This document shows, in pieces, positions 51,699 to 63,616 of a stretch of 64,000 nt of DNA. The stretch's first letter is position 1; every line of letters begins with the position of its first letter. The position numbers and the translations under genes were made by a program. Source of the stretch: Gammaproteobacteria bacterium (GTDB lineage Bacteria; Pseudomonadota; Gammaproteobacteria; Thiohalomonadales; Thiohalomonadaceae); assembly GCA_026196275.1 (NCBI GenBank), contig JAPHTQ010000053.1, forward strand, positions 1 to 64,000. The letters run 5' to 3'. The notes under the pieces are model-generated. The model did no database searches. It was not told the origin of the DNA and saw nothing but the letters and a program-made list of their open reading frames with translations.

Positions 51699-52403
51699 AT
51701 GACAGACAACCTCTCCTTCTCCAATCGACTGCAAACCGTTCGACAACGCATCCAGCGCGCCTGCGAGGCATACGGCAGGGATCCCTCCCAGGTCACCCTG
51801 CTGGCGGTCAGCAAGACCCGCCAAAGTGAGGAGCTGCGCAGCATGGCGGCAGAGGGGGTGCGGCGCTTCGGTGAAAACTACCTCCAGGAGGCGTTGCAGA
51901 AAATCGAGCTGCTGGCCGATCTGGGACTGGAGTGGCATTTTATCGGCCCCATCCAGTCCAATAAAACCCGCACGCTGGCCGAACAGTTCGACTGGGTACA
52001 CAGTGTCGATCGCCTGAAGCTCGCCCGCCGCCTCAGCGAGCAGCGCCCGCGACACCTTGAGCCGCTGAACCTCTGCCTGCAGGTCAATATCAGTGGTGAG
52101 CAGAGCAAGTCCGGGGTGAGTCTGACAGCGTTGCCGTCACTGGCCCACCAGGTCGCCGCGCTGCCGAACCTGCGCCTACGTGGCCTGATGGCCATTCCGG
52201 CGCCGGCTGAGAATTTTGAACAGCAGCGCATCCCCTTTCGTCTGATGCGCCAGGCGCTGGAGCAGCTCCAGACCGAGGGTCTACAGTTGGATACCCTCTC
52301 CATGGGGATGTCCTCCGATCTGGAGGCGGCGATCGCCGAGGGGGCGACCCTGGTGCGTGTCGGCACCGCCCTGTTCGGCCCGCGTCCGCCCAGAACAGTA
52401 TAA
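51699..52403 (+). CDS. yggS: YggS/PLPBP, pyridoxal phosphate homeostasis protein
   Basis: The 234-residue alanine-racemase-fold protein has the PLP lysine in VTLLAVSKTRQ, then FGENYLQEAL and WHFIGPIQSNKT. It binds PLP without enzymatic activity and balances amino acid and PLP pools. Its place beside pilT and proC is conserved. Confidence 0.96.
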   Translation: MTDNLSFSNRLQTVRQRIQRACEAYGRDPSQVTLLAVSKTRQSEELRSMAAEGVRRFGENYLQEALQKIELLADLGLEWHFIGPIQSNKTRTLAEQFDWVHSVDRLKLARRLSEQRPRHLEPLNLCLQVNISGEQSKSGVSLTALPSLAHQVAALPNLRLRGLMAIPAPAENFEQQRIPFRLMRQALEQLQTEGLQLDTLSMGMSSDLEAAIAEGATLVRVGTALFGPRPPRTV

Positions 52404-52504: not shown

Positions 52505-53332
52505 ATGCAAACACGAAATATCGGATTTATCGGCGGCGGCAACATGGCCGCCAGTCTGCTTGGCGGACTGATCAGTGATGGTTTTGATGCCAGTAACATC
52601 TGGGTGGCCGAGCCCGACACCGGCCGCCGCGAGGATCTCTCAGCGCGCTTCGGTGTGCATACCGGCGCCGACAACAGTGAACTGGTCAATGCAGTGGATG
52701 TTCTGGTGCTGGCGGTCAAGCCACAGCTGTTGCATGAGGTCTGCCACGACATCAGCGCCGCCGTACAGGGGAACCGCCCCCTGGTTATTTCGGTGGCCGC
52801 GGGCATACGCGCCGCCGATATCGACCGCTGGCTGGATGGCGACAACGCCATCGTCCGTACCATGCCCAACACCCCGGCACTGGTCAAAAGCGGCGCCACT
52901 GCCCTCTATGCCAACAACCGGGTCGATGCCGGGCAGCGTGAGCTGGCCGAGGCGATCATGCGTGCCGTGGGTCTGACCTTGTGGGTCGAAGAAGAGGCGC
53001 TGATGGATGCGGTAACCGCCCTCTCCGGTAGCGGGCCGGCCTACTTCTTTCTGCTGATAGAGATCCTGCAACAGAGCGGCCAGCGGCTGGGGCTGCCGGA
53101 AAAGAGCGCCCACCTGCTGGCGCTGCAGACCGCTTTCGGTGCCGCCAAGATGGCACTGGAGAGCCAGGAGGACTGCGCCGAGCTGCGTGCCCGTGTCACC
53201 TCGCCCGGCGGCACCACCGAGCGGGCCATCACCCTGCTTGAGGAGGGCGGTATCCGTGAGCTGTTTGACAAGGCACTGCACGGCGCCCGTGATCGTGCCG
53301 CGGAGCTGGCGGATCAACTGGGAGAGGAATAG
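52505..53332 (+). CDS. proC: Pyrroline-5-carboxylate reductase
   Basis: The 275-residue enzyme starts with the NADPH fold IGFIGGGNMAASLLGG and contains the signature RTMPNTPALVKSGATALYA and the substrate helix VTALSGSGPAYFFLLIE. It makes proline from pyrroline-5-carboxylate. It follows yggS after about 100 bp and precedes yggT by 3 bp. Confidence 0.97.
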   Translation: MQTRNIGFIGGGNMAASLLGGLISDGFDASNIWVAEPDTGRREDLSARFGVHTGADNSELVNAVDVLVLAVKPQLLHEVCHDISAAVQGNRPLVISVAAGIRAADIDRWLDGDNAIVRTMPNTPALVKSGATALYANNRVDAGQRELAEAIMRAVGLTLWVEEEALMDAVTALSGSGPAYFFLLIEILQQSGQRLGLPEKSAHLLALQTAFGAAKMALESQEDCAELRARVTSPGGTTERAITLLEEGGIRELFDKALHGARDRAAELADQLGEE

Positions 53333-53335
53333 GCA

Positions 53336-53917
53336 ATGGGGGCGATGACCACAGCACTGGATTTCCTGCTCACCACGCTTTTTCAACTCTACATCGCGGT
53401 GCTCCTGCTGCGCTTCCTGTTGCAGTGGGCCAGGGCCGATTTTTACAACCCGCTGTCCCAGTTTGTGGTCAAAGTGACCACGCCACTGGTCCGTCCGGTA
53501 CGGCGCATTGTTCCGGGACTGGGGGGGCTGGATCTGGCCACCCTGTTGGTGGCCTGGCTGCTGACCGTGCTCCAGGTAACCCTGGTGGGTACCCAGATCG
53601 CCCAATTCCAGATCCCCGGCCTGATCGATGGCCGGACCCTGCAGCCGCTGGCGATCGTCCTGGTGGCACTGCTGGACATGTTCGCCCTGACCATCAGCCT
53701 GTTTCTCATCGCCATCATCATCCAGGCATTGGGCAGCTGGTTCAATCCGGGCCAGTACAACCCGGTCACCGCACTGCTGCACGGCCTGACCGAACCGCTG
53801 CTGCGCCCGGCACGGCGTCTGCTGCCTCCCATCTCCGGCATCGATCTCTCACCACTGCTGGTACTGCTGGCACTGCAGGTGCTGAAAATGCTGGTAATCG
53901 GTCTGACTCTTGGCTGA
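53336..53917 (+). CDS. yggT: YggT family membrane protein
   Basis: The 193-residue protein has two copies of the YggT unit, each a hydrophobic pair around a PL..P.R motif (TPLVRPVRRIVPGLGGLDLA near residues 50-70 and TEPLLRPARRLLPPISGIDL near 147-167). It is an inner-membrane protein of unknown role, linked in other bacteria to osmotic tolerance. It overlaps the next gene by 8 bp. Confidence 0.92.
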   Translation: MGAMTTALDFLLTTLFQLYIAVLLLRFLLQWARADFYNPLSQFVVKVTTPLVRPVRRIVPGLGGLDLATLLVAWLLTVLQVTLVGTQIAQFQIPGLIDGRTLQPLAIVLVALLDMFALTISLFLIAIIIQALGSWFNPGQYNPVTALLHGLTEPLLRPARRLLPPISGIDLSPLLVLLALQVLKMLVIGLTLG

Positions 53918-54233
53918 ACGCGGCGCATGGTACCGCTGGCAGGGGGATAAACTCATCCTCCAGGTACGGGTGCAGCCACGGGCCAGTCGCGACGAGATCG
54001 TCGGTCCCTACGGCGAGGGGAGCCTCAAGATACGCATCAGTGCCCCGCCGGTGGACGGCAAGGCCAACCAGCACCTGCTCAAATTTATCGCCAGGGCCTT
54101 CGGTGTGACCAGGAGCCAGGTGGCACTGCTCAAGGGCAGCACTGGCCGCGACAAGCAGCTGGAGATCACTGCCCCGGGCCGTATTCCGACCGCGGCGCAG
54201 ATCGATAACCGGATAGTCGGGCAAACCAGATAA
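53910..54233 (+). CDS. yggU: YggU/DUF167 protein
   Basis: The 107-residue protein shows the DUF167 pattern LQVRVQPRASRDEIVG, then KIRISAPPVDGKANQHLLKF and LLKGSTGRDKQLEI. Function is unknown. The best start is a TTG inside the yggT end, since no ATG is available in frame near the family N-terminus. Confidence 0.9.
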   Translation: MAERGAWYRWQGDKLILQVRVQPRASRDEIVGPYGEGSLKIRISAPPVDGKANQHLLKFIARAFGVTRSQVALLKGSTGRDKQLEITAPGRIPTAAQIDNRIVGQTR

Positions 54234-54275
54234 CCCTTGTTATTATCCAAATTTTCAATATATTAGGTGGACATG

Positions 54276-54367
54276 CAGCAGCCGGAACGGGGCAAACTTT
54301 GACCCCCATCTCAAAACCGGAAGGAACTCTGGAAAACCGCATATGAATATGGAATAACCGGCTGCTG
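54276..54367. repeat. 10-bp inverted repeat upstream of the dynamin-like gene
   Basis: CAGCAGCCGG (54276-54285) and CCGGCTGCTG (54358-54367) are perfect complements 72 bp apart in the otherwise empty yggU-dynamin spacer. The enclosed sequence has no frame I can support. It could be a decayed mobile fragment or a structured leader. Confidence 0.5.
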
Positions 54368-54403: not shown

Positions 54404-56377
54404 ATGGCCAACAAACGTTTTACCGAACAGATGCACGCCTACGGGCAATGGAAGGAGGATCTGATCGCCGGCATCAACCACTACCAAAAATGGTTGGATG
54501 CCAATGAGATGGCCAGCGCGGAAGACGAGTTGCGGATCTACGAAAGCATCAGCACCCTGCGTTCGGACACACTCACCATCGCCTTCGTTGCCGAATTTGC
54601 CCGCGGCAAGACCGAACTGATCAACGCTATCTTCTTCTCCGAGTACGACCGCCGCCTGCTGCCCTCCGAGGCCGGTCGCACCACCATGTGTCCGACCGAA
54701 CTGTTCTACGACAATGAACACAAGCAGGCCTATATCCGCCTGCTGCCCATCGAGACCCGGCTCAAGGAGACCAGCATCGCCGAATACAAGGACGATCCCA
54801 TCCACTGGAGCCATATCGACCTGGATCTTGATAATGCGGACAATATGGCAGAGGCCTTCCGTGAGATCGTCAAAACCAAGCGGGTGCCGCGTCAGGAGGC
54901 CCAGAAACTGGGGCTCTACTCCGAGGCCGACAGCCATCTGAACAGGCCCGATGGCTCCGCGCCGGAGGAGATCGACATTCCGCTGTGGCGCCACGCCCTG
55001 ATCAGCTTCCCCCACCCGCTGCTCAAGCAGGGACTGGTGATCCTCGATACCCCCGGCCTGAACGCCCTCGGCAGTGAGCCCGAGCTGGCCCTCAACATGC
55101 TACCCAAGGCACAGGCGGTGATGTTCGTCCTGTCGGCCGACACCGGCGTGACCAAGTCTGACCTCGACATGTGGGTACACAACGTCAAGCCGATGCGCCA
55201 AGGCAAGGAGAAGGGCACTATCGTCATCCTCAACAAGGCCGACACCCTGTGGGATGACCTGAAAACCCATGAAGAGATCGAGCGCACCATTGCCGATCAG
55301 TGCAAAAAGGCCGCACAGACCCTGGATATCCATAGCAACACCGTCCATCCGGTCTCGGCGCAAAAGGGGTTGCTGGCCAAAATCCGTCACGATCAGGAGT
55401 TGCTCAAGCGCAGTAATATCCTCAGCCTGGAATCCATTCTGGCCAACGAAATCCTGCCCTATCAGCAGGAGATCGTCAGGGAACACGTCCAGAGCGATGT
55501 TGGCAACATGATCAAGGATTCCCGCGACCTGCTCTCCTCGCGCTTTTATTCGATCAAGAGCCAGCTGGAGGAGCTGCACGGGCTCAGCGGCAAGAACAAC
55601 GAAGTGATCGAACACCTGATGCATAAAACCCGGGAGGAGCAGGTGGCGTACCACAAAAATGTGGAGAGCTTTAACGCCAACAAGCGACTTCTCTCCGAGC
55701 AGAGCAGACGCCTGCTGGGCATGCTCAGTCTCACCGAGCTGGACAAACTGGTCTCCAGAAGTCGTGAATCGATGACCGAAACCTGGACCACCCACGGCCT
55801 GAAGGCAGGCATGAAAACATTCTTCGACGGGATCAGCGCCATGCTCAAGGAGGTCGATGACTACTCCGAACGTCTCAACCGGCTGATCACCACCGTCTAC
55901 CACAAGTTCCAGTCCGAGCACGGCCTGCAGGGTATCGAGCCGGTGCTCTTTGAGATCGACAAATACGTCCGGGAGATGGACAAGCTTTACGATGAGGCAG
56001 AGGCCTTTCGTAACAGTCCGGTGACCGTCATGACCGAGCAGCACTACGTGGTGAAGAAGTTCTTCATCTCCCTGGTCAGTCACGCCAGAAATGTCTTCTT
56101 CAAGGCACACCGTGATGCCGAAAGCTGGAGCAAGGCGGTGATGTCTCCACTGGTCAAGCAGATAAAGGAGCACAAGGAGCAGATGGATCGGCGCCTGGAG
56201 AACCTGCGCAAGATCAACGAATCGCGGGACACCCTGGAGTCACGGATGAACGAGTTGAAGCGTAATGGCGCGGTGCTGAAAAAACAGTATGCGGAAATCA
56301 ACGGTATCCTCAAAGTAATTAACCGCCCGCTGGATACCGATCCCGCCACCGTACGGCCTGCCGCCAGGGCAAGCTAG
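54404..56377 (+). CDS. Bacterial dynamin-like GTPase
   Basis: The 657-residue protein has a dynamin-type G domain: a P-loop at residues 63-70 (AEFARGKT, with A63 where the first glycine is usual), a G2 threonine pair (T93-T94), DTPG at 215-218 and NKAD at 277-280. The remainder is long amphipathic helix and coiled coil with a central VKKFFISLVSHARNVF paddle-like hydrophobic stretch near 555. Such proteins remodel or guard membranes. It stands alone between yggU and metX, so no partner dynamin is encoded beside it. Function is unknown. Confidence 0.85.
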   Translation: MANKRFTEQMHAYGQWKEDLIAGINHYQKWLDANEMASAEDELRIYESISTLRSDTLTIAFVAEFARGKTELINAIFFSEYDRRLLPSEAGRTTMCPTELFYDNEHKQAYIRLLPIETRLKETSIAEYKDDPIHWSHIDLDLDNADNMAEAFREIVKTKRVPRQEAQKLGLYSEADSHLNRPDGSAPEEIDIPLWRHALISFPHPLLKQGLVILDTPGLNALGSEPELALNMLPKAQAVMFVLSADTGVTKSDLDMWVHNVKPMRQGKEKGTIVILNKADTLWDDLKTHEEIERTIADQCKKAAQTLDIHSNTVHPVSAQKGLLAKIRHDQELLKRSNILSLESILANEILPYQQEIVREHVQSDVGNMIKDSRDLLSSRFYSIKSQLEELHGLSGKNNEVIEHLMHKTREEQVAYHKNVESFNANKRLLSEQSRRLLGMLSLTELDKLVSRSRESMTETWTTHGLKAGMKTFFDGISAMLKEVDDYSERLNRLITTVYHKFQSEHGLQGIEPVLFEIDKYVREMDKLYDEAEAFRNSPVTVMTEQHYVVKKFFISLVSHARNVFFKAHRDAESWSKAVMSPLVKQIKEHKEQMDRRLENLRKINESRDTLESRMNELKRNGAVLKKQYAEINGILKVINRPLDTDPATVRPAARAS

Positions 56378-56477: not shown

Positions 56478-57626
56478 ATGCCCGATTCTATCCCGGCCGA
56501 CTCCGTCGGTCTGGTCACCACCCAAACCCTGCACTTTGACACCCCGCTCAATCTTGACTGCGGACGGGTACTGGCGGAGTATGACCTGGTCTATGAGACC
56601 TACGGCACTCTGGCCGAAAACCGCGATAACGCGATCCTCATCTGTCACGCCCTCTCCGGCGACCAGCACGCCGCCGGCTATCACAGTATGGAGGATCGCA
56701 AGCCCGGCTGGTGGGACACCGCTATCGGCCCGGGCAAACCCATCGATACTAACCATTTCTATGTGGTCTGCCTGAACAACCTGGGCGGCTGCAAGGGCTC
56801 AAGCGGCCCGGCCAGCACCAACCCGCAAACCGGCAAGCCCTGGGGACCCGATTTCCCCATCGTCACCGTCCACGACTGGGTCAACAGCCAGGCACGGCTG
56901 GCCGATGCGCTGGGTGTCGGGCAGTGGGCCGCCGTGATCGGTGGCTCACTCGGCGGCATGCAGGTGCTGCAGTGGGCCATCGACTATCCCCGGCGGCTGC
57001 GCCATGCGGTGGTGATCGCCGCCGCACCCAACCTCACTGCACAGAACATCGCCTTTAACGAGGTGGTGCGCCAGGCGCTGCGCTCCGACCCGGATTTTTA
57101 CGACGGTCGTTATTATGAACATGGGGTGGTGCCGGCCCAGGGACTGAAGATCGCCCGCATGCTGGGACATATCACCTACCTCTCGGACGATGCGATGCGC
57201 AAGAAATTCGGCCGGGAGTTGCGCGAGGGCAAGATCAGCTTCGGCTTCGATGTGGAGTTCCAGGTGGAGAGCTACCTGCGCTACCAGGGGGAGAGCTTTG
57301 TCGAGCGCTTCGATGCCAATACCTACCTGCTGATGACCAAGGCGCTGGACTATTATGACCCGGCGGCGGAACATGGCGGTGACCTATCCGCTGCGCTGCA
57401 GGGGGTAGAGGCCCAATTTCTGGTGGTCTCCTTCACCAGCGACTGGCGCTTCTCGCCGGAGCGCTCGCGGGAGATCGTCAAGGCACTGCTCGATGGCGAC
57501 AAGACGGTCAGTTACGCCGAAGTCGAAGCGCACCATGGCCACGACGCCTTCCTCATCCCGATCCCGCACTACTTCGACATCTTCCACGCCTACATGGAGC
57601 GGGTTGCCGCAGAGTGTGAACGATGA
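56478..57626 (+). CDS. metX: Homoserine O-acyltransferase MetX, probably succinylating
   Basis: This 382-residue alpha/beta hydrolase has the nucleophile S157 in GGSLGGMQ, an aspartate in [10 protein letters not shown] and a histidine in [10 protein letters not shown]. It activates homoserine with acetyl- or succinyl-CoA for methionine synthesis. MetX proteins paired with metW in Proteobacteria are mostly succinyltransferases, hence the preference. It overlaps metW by 4 bp. No SAM riboswitch is evident in the 100 bp upstream. Confidence 0.94.
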
Positions 57627-58228
57627 AGGGACTGCGCCCCGATCTGGAGATCATCAGCCAGTGGATCGAACCGGGCAGCCGCGTGCTGGATCTCGGCTGC
57701 GGTAATGGGGCGCTGCTGGAGTACCTCAGACACGAACGCGACGTGGATGGCTACGGCCTGGAGATCAATCCGGAGAATGTCATTGCCTGCGTCCGGCGCG
57801 GGATCAGCGTCATTCAAAGTGATCTGGATGCCGGACTGAGCGACTACTTCGACGACAACTCCTTCGATTATGTAGTGATGACCCAGACCTTGCAGGCCGT
57901 ACACTATCCCTCCTGGCTACTGCAGGAGATGCTGCGTGTCGGTCGCCAGGGGATCGTCACCTTTCCCAACTTCGGTCACTGGAAAAGCCGTCTGCAGATT
58001 GCCCTGGGCGGACACATGCCGATCTCCCGAGCCTTACCCAACGAATGGTATGATACCCCCAATATCCACCTCTGCACGCTCAAGGACTTTGAGCAGCTGT
58101 GCCATAAACTTGAGATCGAGATCCTGCAGCGTAACGTGGTGGATACCGCGCACCGCACCAACATCGGCACCAGATTGATGCCTAACCTGCTGGGTGAGAT
58201 CGCCCTCTATCGCTTCCAGCATAACTGA
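57623..58228 (+). CDS. metW: MetW, methionine biosynthesis partner of MetX
   Basis: The 201-residue class I methyltransferase-fold protein has [15 protein letters not shown] and [14 protein letters not shown] in the SAM-fold positions and a [11 protein letters not shown] segment typical of MetW. It is required with MetX in several proteobacteria. Overlap with metX suggests stoichiometric expression. Confidence 0.95.
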
Positions 58229-62369: not shown

Positions 62370-63023
62370 ATGAACGATACGATGCAAAAGACTTTCCTTA
62401 TCGGCTGCCTGCTGGGTAGTGCACTGCTGATGCCGTTACACGGCCAGGCTGCAATCAAGTGCTGGACCAACAACGAAGGGGTGCGTGAATGCGGCAACGC
62501 CATTCCGCCCGAGTACGCCCAGCAGGAGTCGGAGACCCTCAACAAGCGCGGAATGACCGTCGATGTGCAGAAACGGGCCAAGACCGGGGAAGAGCTGGAG
62601 GAGGAGCGCCGGCGCAGGGCCGAAGAGGAGCAGCGCCGTGCCGAGCAAGAGCGTCTGCGCAAGGAGCAGGCGAATTACGATCGGGTGCTGCTCTCCACCT
62701 TCCTCTCGGAGCAGGAGATCATCGAGGCACGGGATCGCAAGATCAGCGCCATTGATGCGACCATCGAGCTCAACCGGATCACCGTCGAAAAACACAAGGT
62801 CGATCTTCAGCACGAGCAGCAGCGCGCTGAAAACTACCGGCAAAGGGAGAGGGCGATCCCGGAGAACCTGCAGCAGTCGATCGACTCCCTGGAGCGGCAG
62901 ATCACTGACAAAAACCGTTATATCAAGAGCCAGCAGGAAGAGAAGGCGCGGCTTGAGTTGAAATACCAGCAAGACCTGGAGCGTTTCCGCGAACTCAAGG
63001 CCTCCGGGCGGCGGCTACACTAG
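62370..63023 (+). CDS. DUF4124 exported coiled-coil protein
   Basis: The protein has a signal peptide (QKTFLIGCLLGSALLMPLHG, then QAAIKCW) and a short DUF4124 module (IKCWTNNEGVRECGNAIPPE with two cysteines), followed by about 140 residues of charged, heptad-like helix (EELEEERRRRAEEEQRRAEQ and on). It is probably periplasmic. Two start ATGs (62370, 62382) are possible; neither has a strong ribosome site. Its stop shares a CTAG with the convergent slmA. Confidence 0.8.
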   Translation: MNDTMQKTFLIGCLLGSALLMPLHGQAAIKCWTNNEGVRECGNAIPPEYAQQESETLNKRGMTVDVQKRAKTGEELEEERRRRAEEEQRRAEQERLRKEQANYDRVLLSTFLSEQEIIEARDRKISAIDATIELNRITVEKHKVDLQHEQQRAENYRQRERAIPENLQQSIDSLERQITDKNRYIKSQQEEKARLELKYQQDLERFRELKASGRRLH

Positions 63024-63616
63024 TGGAAGATCGCCGCGGCAAGCAGCGCCCACTGCTCCTCCCACTCGACCATCGGCGAGCGTTTGAAATTGCTGCGCAC
63101 ATACTGATTCATGCGCCCCTCGGCGGCAGCCAGCAGCATGTTCGCTGTCGCGGCCACATGCTGGCGCCCGCGCAACTCGCCGGCCAGCTCCGCCTCACGC
63201 AGGATCTGCTTTAACTGACTCTCGATACGATCGAAAAACTGGCTGATGCGCTGGTGCAACCGCTCGGTCTCGCCGATCAGGGCATCCCCCACCAGGATGC
63301 GGCTGATCCCCGGATTTCGCGCCGAGAAACCGAGCAGAAGCAGCATGATCTTCTCGCTACGGGCAACCGCACGGCTCTCATCCTTGAGGATACGGTTGAT
63401 CAGGCCAAACACGCTCTCCTCGATAAACTCGATCAGCCCCTCGAACATCTTCGCCTTACTCGGAAAATGGCGGTAGAGCGCCGCCTCCGAGACCCCTACC
63501 GCACGGGCCAGGCCGGCGGTGGTAATGCGTTGTCCCGGGCTCTTCTCCAGCTCATGCGCCAGCGCCTCAAGGATCTGTTGACGGCGTGATGGTTTATCTT
63601 TGTTGTTCTCGCTCAT
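63020..63616 (-). CDS. slmA: SlmA, nucleoid occlusion factor
   Basis: The 198-residue TetR-family protein has the helix-turn-helix ITTAGLARAVGVSEAALYRH and the SlmA-specific MFEGLIEFIEESVFGLINRI and GFSARNPGISRILVGDAL helices. It blocks FtsZ assembly over the chromosome. It lies 12 bp after argB on the same strand. Confidence 0.93.
   Translation of the reverse strand: MSENNKDKPSRRQQILEALAHELEKSPGQRITTAGLARAVGVSEAALYRHFPSKAKMFEGLIEFIEESVFGLINRILKDESRAVARSEKIMLLLLGFSARNPGISRILVGDALIGETERLHQRISQFFDRIESQLKQILREAELAGELRGRQHVAATANMLLAAAEGRMNQYVRSNFKRSPMVEWEEQWALLAAAIFH

Follow-up and report, generated by a model that had tools for sequence, protein, structure and literature searches.

Most bacterial dynamin-like GTPases (DLPs) are paired, with CrfC named as the exception (PMC6104087). 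The studied ones mostly come in pairs or lie on islands, and very few in Proteobacteria have an established housekeeping role. Membrane activity is known for SynDLP (PMC10104851) as well as for DynA, a chromosomal DLP of B. subtilis that is active in membrane surveillance and protects the population against phage (PMC8844932). Membership in this superfamily is not proof of a membrane role, since CrfC/RdcA is a soluble protein with a part in nucleoid positioning or c-di-GMP signaling (PMC6374313, PMC6510439). The gene described here lies in a window of 64 kb, the whole stretch of DNA that was analyzed, and belongs to a widespread family of solitary DLPs.

Gene, Protein and GTPase Motifs

The gene and the parts of its product are located as follows:

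54404..56377, + strand: dynamin-like GTPase (DLP) gene, ATG start, 657 aa, Dynamin_N E 1.1e-15
54590..54613, + strand: G1/P-loop AEFARGKT, residues 63-70, from the translation and the family signature [AG]E[FYV][SA]RGK[TS]
54674..54700, + strand: G2 region GRTTMCPTE, residues 91-99, from the translation, with T93, T94, M95, P97 and E99 invariant in 31 diverse members
55046..55057, + strand: G3 DTPG, residues 215-218, from the translation and the 31-member alignment
55232..55243, + strand: G4 NKAD, residues 277-280, with N277, K278 and D280 invariant in the 31-member alignment
55451..56323, + strand: C-terminal helical region, residues ~350-640, candidate stalk or trunk, from predicted helices with a local pLDDT mostly of ~55-87

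By its motifs and profile matches the window protein is a dynamin-like GTPase, as was originally predicted. Pfam Dynamin_N covers residues 59-279 with 58.5 bits against a cut-off of 27, and the domain carries G1, G2, G3 and G4, the combination that defines the superfamily. When a profile of 31 family members is compared with solved structures, DLPs come first (BDLP, 1e-12; SynDLP, 2e-10; mitofusin-2, 6e-9; LeoA, 3e-6; IniA, 1.6e-5). The G2, DTPG and NKAD motifs, which had been reported as intact, are all present (GRTTMCPT with T93/T94, DTPG at 215-218 and NKAD at 277-280). The catalytic motif residues are invariant across the 31 diverse members, and GTPase function is thus under constraint.

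The P-loop had been described as changed. Its letters, A63-E-F-A-R67-G-K-T70, were read correctly, but they are not unusual. The general Walker-A consensus, [AG]x4GK[ST], permits Ala at the first position, and 98 of 121 family members have Ala, the majority state, while the other 23 have Gly. These two states have switched at least 6 times on the tree, a minimum that also takes in three more distant DLPs, all with Gly. All sequences of the 31-member alignment have R67, the Arg that precedes GK, and the P-loop of Nostoc BDLP (GDMKRGKS) has an Arg at the corresponding place. Because of this majority state, the conserved Arg and the latitude of the consensus, an aberrant P-loop is rejected and the motif is regarded as ordinary biology.

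Hydropathy of the sequence reveals no transmembrane helix and no strongly hydrophobic paddle or segment in the window protein, and the best 19-residue value past residue 300 is a weakly hydrophobic 0.85, at 548-566. AlphaFold, given the window protein and two relatives (three sequences), returned a poor whole-protein model (mean pLDDT 54) with long helices predicted after residue 350, and the GTPase part modeled alone was also poor (pLDDT 45). A VIA search with the helical part of the pLDDT-54 model matched the Campylobacter DLP pair (Z 9.7), IniA (9.4), SynDLP (9.1) and LeoA (8.5), in a list where the scores of the DLP stalks are equaled or exceeded by those of designed helical bundles and flagellins.

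Among solved DLPs, Nostoc BDLP1 (PDB 2j68/2w6d) is the best profile match, and it shares with the window protein the P-loop Arg and the order of a GTPase domain followed by a helical region. However, the similarity lies mostly in the GTPase domain, the BDLP1 P-loop starts with Gly, and the hydrophobic paddle of BDLP1 is not evident here. Synechocystis SynDLP (PDB 7zw6), the second-best match, is likewise dynamin-like, but it has 820 aa as opposed to 657, comes from another lineage and has the P-loop GAFSAGKS. The Campylobacter proteins Cj-DLP1/2 show some stalk resemblance to the poor model (rmsd 5.4 over 241 aligned residues, in the same list as unrelated helical bundles that score equally or higher), yet they are encoded by a heterotypic gene pair.

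A Solitary Gene

The earlier statement that this DLP stands alone holds true, as no second DLP adjoins it and it is the sole DLP gene of its genome. A GTPase-domain profile search of the flanks, mostly ~6 kb on each side of the gene, found a second DLP at none of 124 family loci. The window's genome (2.54 Mb, 99% complete) has one bona fide Dynamin_N gene; its other match is partial (26.8 bits), lies in a 306-aa frame and is probably an Era-like GTPase. Side-by-side gene pairs such as BDLP1/2, Cj-DLP1/2, LeoA/LeoBC and DynA/B are therefore found neither at these 124 loci nor in the window's genome. What does not stand is the view of this solitude as a peculiarity, since it is a trait of the whole family with a precedent in CrfC/RdcA. 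The family is a further solitary group of bacterial DLPs, and features that seem unusual in the window gene are normal for this uncharacterized but widespread family.

Other Dynamin_N genes do occur in related genomes. About half of the family's genomes encode a second Dynamin_N protein of ~500 aa elsewhere (G009:C122:901-1404, G008:C1:4042419-4042922 and G010:C5:20251-20661, among others), which is absent from the window's genome. One genome of the same taxonomic family carries, beside the solitary gene, an adjacent pair of other Dynamin_N genes with frames of 651 and 577 aa (G004:C31:1243-3620). Another has a second DLP copy (G002:C372:1941-3851; L166) that groups on the tree with a different taxonomic family (f64), either through assembly contamination or through lateral transfer.

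Distribution and Chromosomal Address

Every one of the 20 genomes from the window's taxonomic family has the DLP. Across the class it was found in 78 of 276 sampled genomes, four of them by weak matches alone, and it spans 58 of the 216 genera sampled. In a phylum-wide sample, the make-up of which is not shown, every strong match belongs to the same class. The neighbors in the window are:

51699..52403, + strand: yggS-type PLP protein (Ala_racemase_N), conserved neighbor
52505..53332, + strand: proC, conserved neighbor
53336..53917, + strand: yggT (YGGT family membrane protein), conserved neighbor
53910..54233, + strand: yggU (DUF167), neighbor conserved in many loci
56478..57626, + strand: metX-like alpha/beta hydrolase (homoserine acyltransferase; Pfam Abhydrolase_1), frequent downstream neighbor
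57623..58228, + strand: metW, frequent downstream neighbor

The name metX is presumed from the place of this gene before metW and from general knowledge. At 79 loci the DLP gene follows proC/yggT and shares their strand without exception, the full order being yggS-proC-yggT(-yggU). In these loci pilT and pilU are usually found further upstream in divergent orientation, and metX is near the other side of the DLP gene in 34 of the 79 as well as in 4 other loci. Loci whose protein is as little as ~34% identical to that of the window (L111) still have this address. Neither a tRNA as a nearby integration site in the 64-kb window nor an Rfam element near the gene was found. A phage or mobile origin was considered and rejected; no relatives were found in phages or viral contigs, and plasmids gave a single remote match (Nostoc). 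The gene is vertically inherited, single-copy and housekeeping-like.

About 7 kb from the DLP gene, window positions 63023-63616 encode a TetR-type regulator. Its C-terminal domain is SlmA-like (Pfam PF22276), and it may be the nucleoid-occlusion factor SlmA itself.

The Upstream Region

Three features precede the gene:

54237..54264, + strand: conserved promoter-like element TTGTTATTATCCAAATTTTCAATATATT (TTGTTA-16-TATATT), from conservation in family genomes
54276..54285, no strand: left arm of a 10-bp inverted repeat, not conserved
54358..54367, no strand: right arm of the 10-bp inverted repeat, not conserved

A promoter scan before the gene gave one site, at 54237-54264, which by itself is no more than would be expected by chance. 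The pattern TTGT-N13-TTCNATATATT is found exactly once in the window's whole genome, and in 10 of 20 family genomes it likewise occurs once per genome, always shortly before the DLP gene. The pattern comes from the very sequences in which it was counted, so the count does not test it independently, but the once-per-genome placement is still informative. The region around the element is otherwise poorly conserved (~50% mean column identity among five relatives). The element is read here as a putative promoter of the DLP gene itself, from which transcription would at least partly start, and it is possibly a dedicated regulatory site. With such a promoter, the yggT neighborhood need not be an operon.

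The inverted repeat noted in the original prediction does exist, with arms 72 nt apart, but it is neither conserved nor rare. Among 18 relatives, the sequence before the gene has neither arm. When the same 221 nt were shuffled 2000 times, such a repeat arose in 23 cases, and of 289 window tiles of equal length, 16 contain one. A role as an operator is therefore rejected.

Two Clades and the mutM/mutY Linkage

The family can be defined by the P-loop [AG]E[FYV][SA]RGK[TS]E, the switch I motif G(R/Q)TTMCP, the sequence DTPGLNA and an address behind yggT/proC (clade A) or mutM (clade B), and the window gene has both the motifs and the address. A maximum-likelihood tree of 124 rows, made by a quick method and with several long branches, separates the two. 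All genes at the yggT/metX site, the window's copy among them, fall in clade A (94 rows, SH-aLRT 99), and all those at the mutM site are divided between clade B (23 rows, SH-aLRT 87) and a basal group of four (95). The address label changes once on the tree. Seven genomes (G074, G092, G115, G194, G221, G282 and G293) have one copy per clade, each at its own address; the clade B copy of G194 keeps the ggt/coaD/fdx/rsmD context, with mutM not detected.

At 21 loci of clade B and the basal group, 8-338 nt separate the DLP gene from the preceding mutM. In 11 loci from three taxonomic families, mutY follows the DLP gene. The mutY start is placed at -4 to +7 nt from the DLP stop codon in 8 of the 11 and within 38 nt in 10. 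Both glycosylases were identified by Pfam (MutM by Fapy_DNA_glyco, H2TH and zf-FPG; MutY by HhH-GPD with NUDIX_4). In 10 of the 11 loci mutM stays with the DLP gene though the coaD/fdx/rsmD context of the other clade B loci is gone, giving the following arrangement:

L112:4895-9061: mutM-DLP-mutY on one strand, seen also in L110, L129, L130, L132, L139, L143, L144, L146 and L147

This order in the sister clade is a specific clue, open to experiment, that points to DNA repair, and it is the single truly interesting lead of the analysis. As evidence of a functional link it is suggestive and not strong, because the tree implies about one joining of mutM and about one of mutY. A search of open-access papers found no relevant literature on a DLP beside mutM/mutY or yggT.

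Possible Functions

The explanation favored here, at roughly even confidence, is that the window protein is a solitary, homo-oligomeric GTPase for remodeling or surveillance of the inner membrane, in clade A of a two-clade gammaproteobacterial family. The DLP would bind GTP and assemble with its own copies through the helical C-terminal part. This GTP-driven assembly would take place at the inner face of the inner membrane and would serve remodeling or surveillance under envelope stress, in the manner of B. subtilis DynA or SynDLP. It is by analogy that we infer both the self-assembly and the action at the inner membrane. The family consists of single genes that have stayed at two fixed chromosomal addresses over long evolutionary times, and both the catalytic residues and an upstream element are conserved. 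Such a family is well suited to a genetic approach to the role of a bacterial dynamin in ordinary growth.

The chief alternative, which is possible though on the doubtful side, is a chromosome-associated or regulatory DLP like CrfC/RdcA, that is, a soluble oligomerizing GTPase that controls the placement of the nucleoid, of the replication or repair machinery or of a signaling enzyme instead of reshaping membranes. The lack of a transmembrane or strongly hydrophobic segment in the window protein would fit such a role. E. coli CrfC/RdcA (YjdA) is also gammaproteobacterial, resembles the window protein in the GTPase domain (hhalign probability 97) and likewise acts without a DLP partner (PMC6104087), the last being a likeness in gene neighborhood only and a shared trait rather than proof of kinship. 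However, hhalign aligns residues ~46-326 only, and similarity in the C-terminal half, as full-length kinship would show, was not detected. The clamp-binding motif that CrfC has near its N-terminus (QLALP) was sought and is absent from the window protein, with matches elsewhere in the family scattered in position. CrfC also differs in its operon with rdcB and in its P-loop, GxxxxGKS. MutM and MutY, to whose genes clade B is linked, are 8-oxoguanine repair glycosylases, and this linkage points away from a membrane role. Beside the clade A genes is yggT, which encodes a member of the YGGT family. In chloroplasts, cyanobacteria and Streptomyces, YlmG proteins of that family influence how nucleoids are distributed (PMC2923531, PMC4852450). 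Yet functional overlap of YlmG and E. coli YggT is doubted by PMC4852450 itself, and with its own promoter-like element, the clade A gene may be beside yggT as a matter of position only.

A broader form of this idea, which seems rather unlikely, is that the whole family is chromosome-linked and not purely membrane-linked, with clade B working with MutM and MutY and clade A having a related task between nucleoid and envelope beside YggT. If true, it would be a second, broadly conserved bacterial dynamin in DNA maintenance, after E. coli CrfC.

A phage-defense DLP of the LeoABC/Eleos type, or a lysis-delaying protein like DynA, is improbable. The chromosomal DynA offers a precedent for protection against phage (PMC8844932), and LeoBC is the best PADLOC model for the window protein (5e-11; 40 bits, for a model given without a curated cut-off) and matches 27 of 31 family members. 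These matches are weak and partial, however, and the LeoA/HP0731 subfamily model reaches 14.4 bits against a curated cut-off of 325. Leo systems are multi-gene operons in islands or mobile elements (island-borne in ETEC) and use partner DLPs, whereas the family gene has no partner at 124 loci, no phage or viral-contig relative, one remote plasmid match, and a fixed address in 79 loci. Its distribution, with 20 of 20 genomes of the taxonomic family, and its fixed chromosomal address among housekeeping genes are unlike those of defense islands and argue against a dedicated defense-island gene, and a dedicated phage-defense role is unlikely. Highly improbable, finally, is a DLP that builds or maintains the intracytoplasmic membranes of phototrophs, methanotrophs or ammonia oxidizers, for although the protein is a large GTPase, its gammaproteobacterial lineage is close to Ectothiorhodospiraceae and both SynDLP and BDLP are cyanobacterial, its presence in 58 of 216 genera across the class is too broad for a special membrane system.
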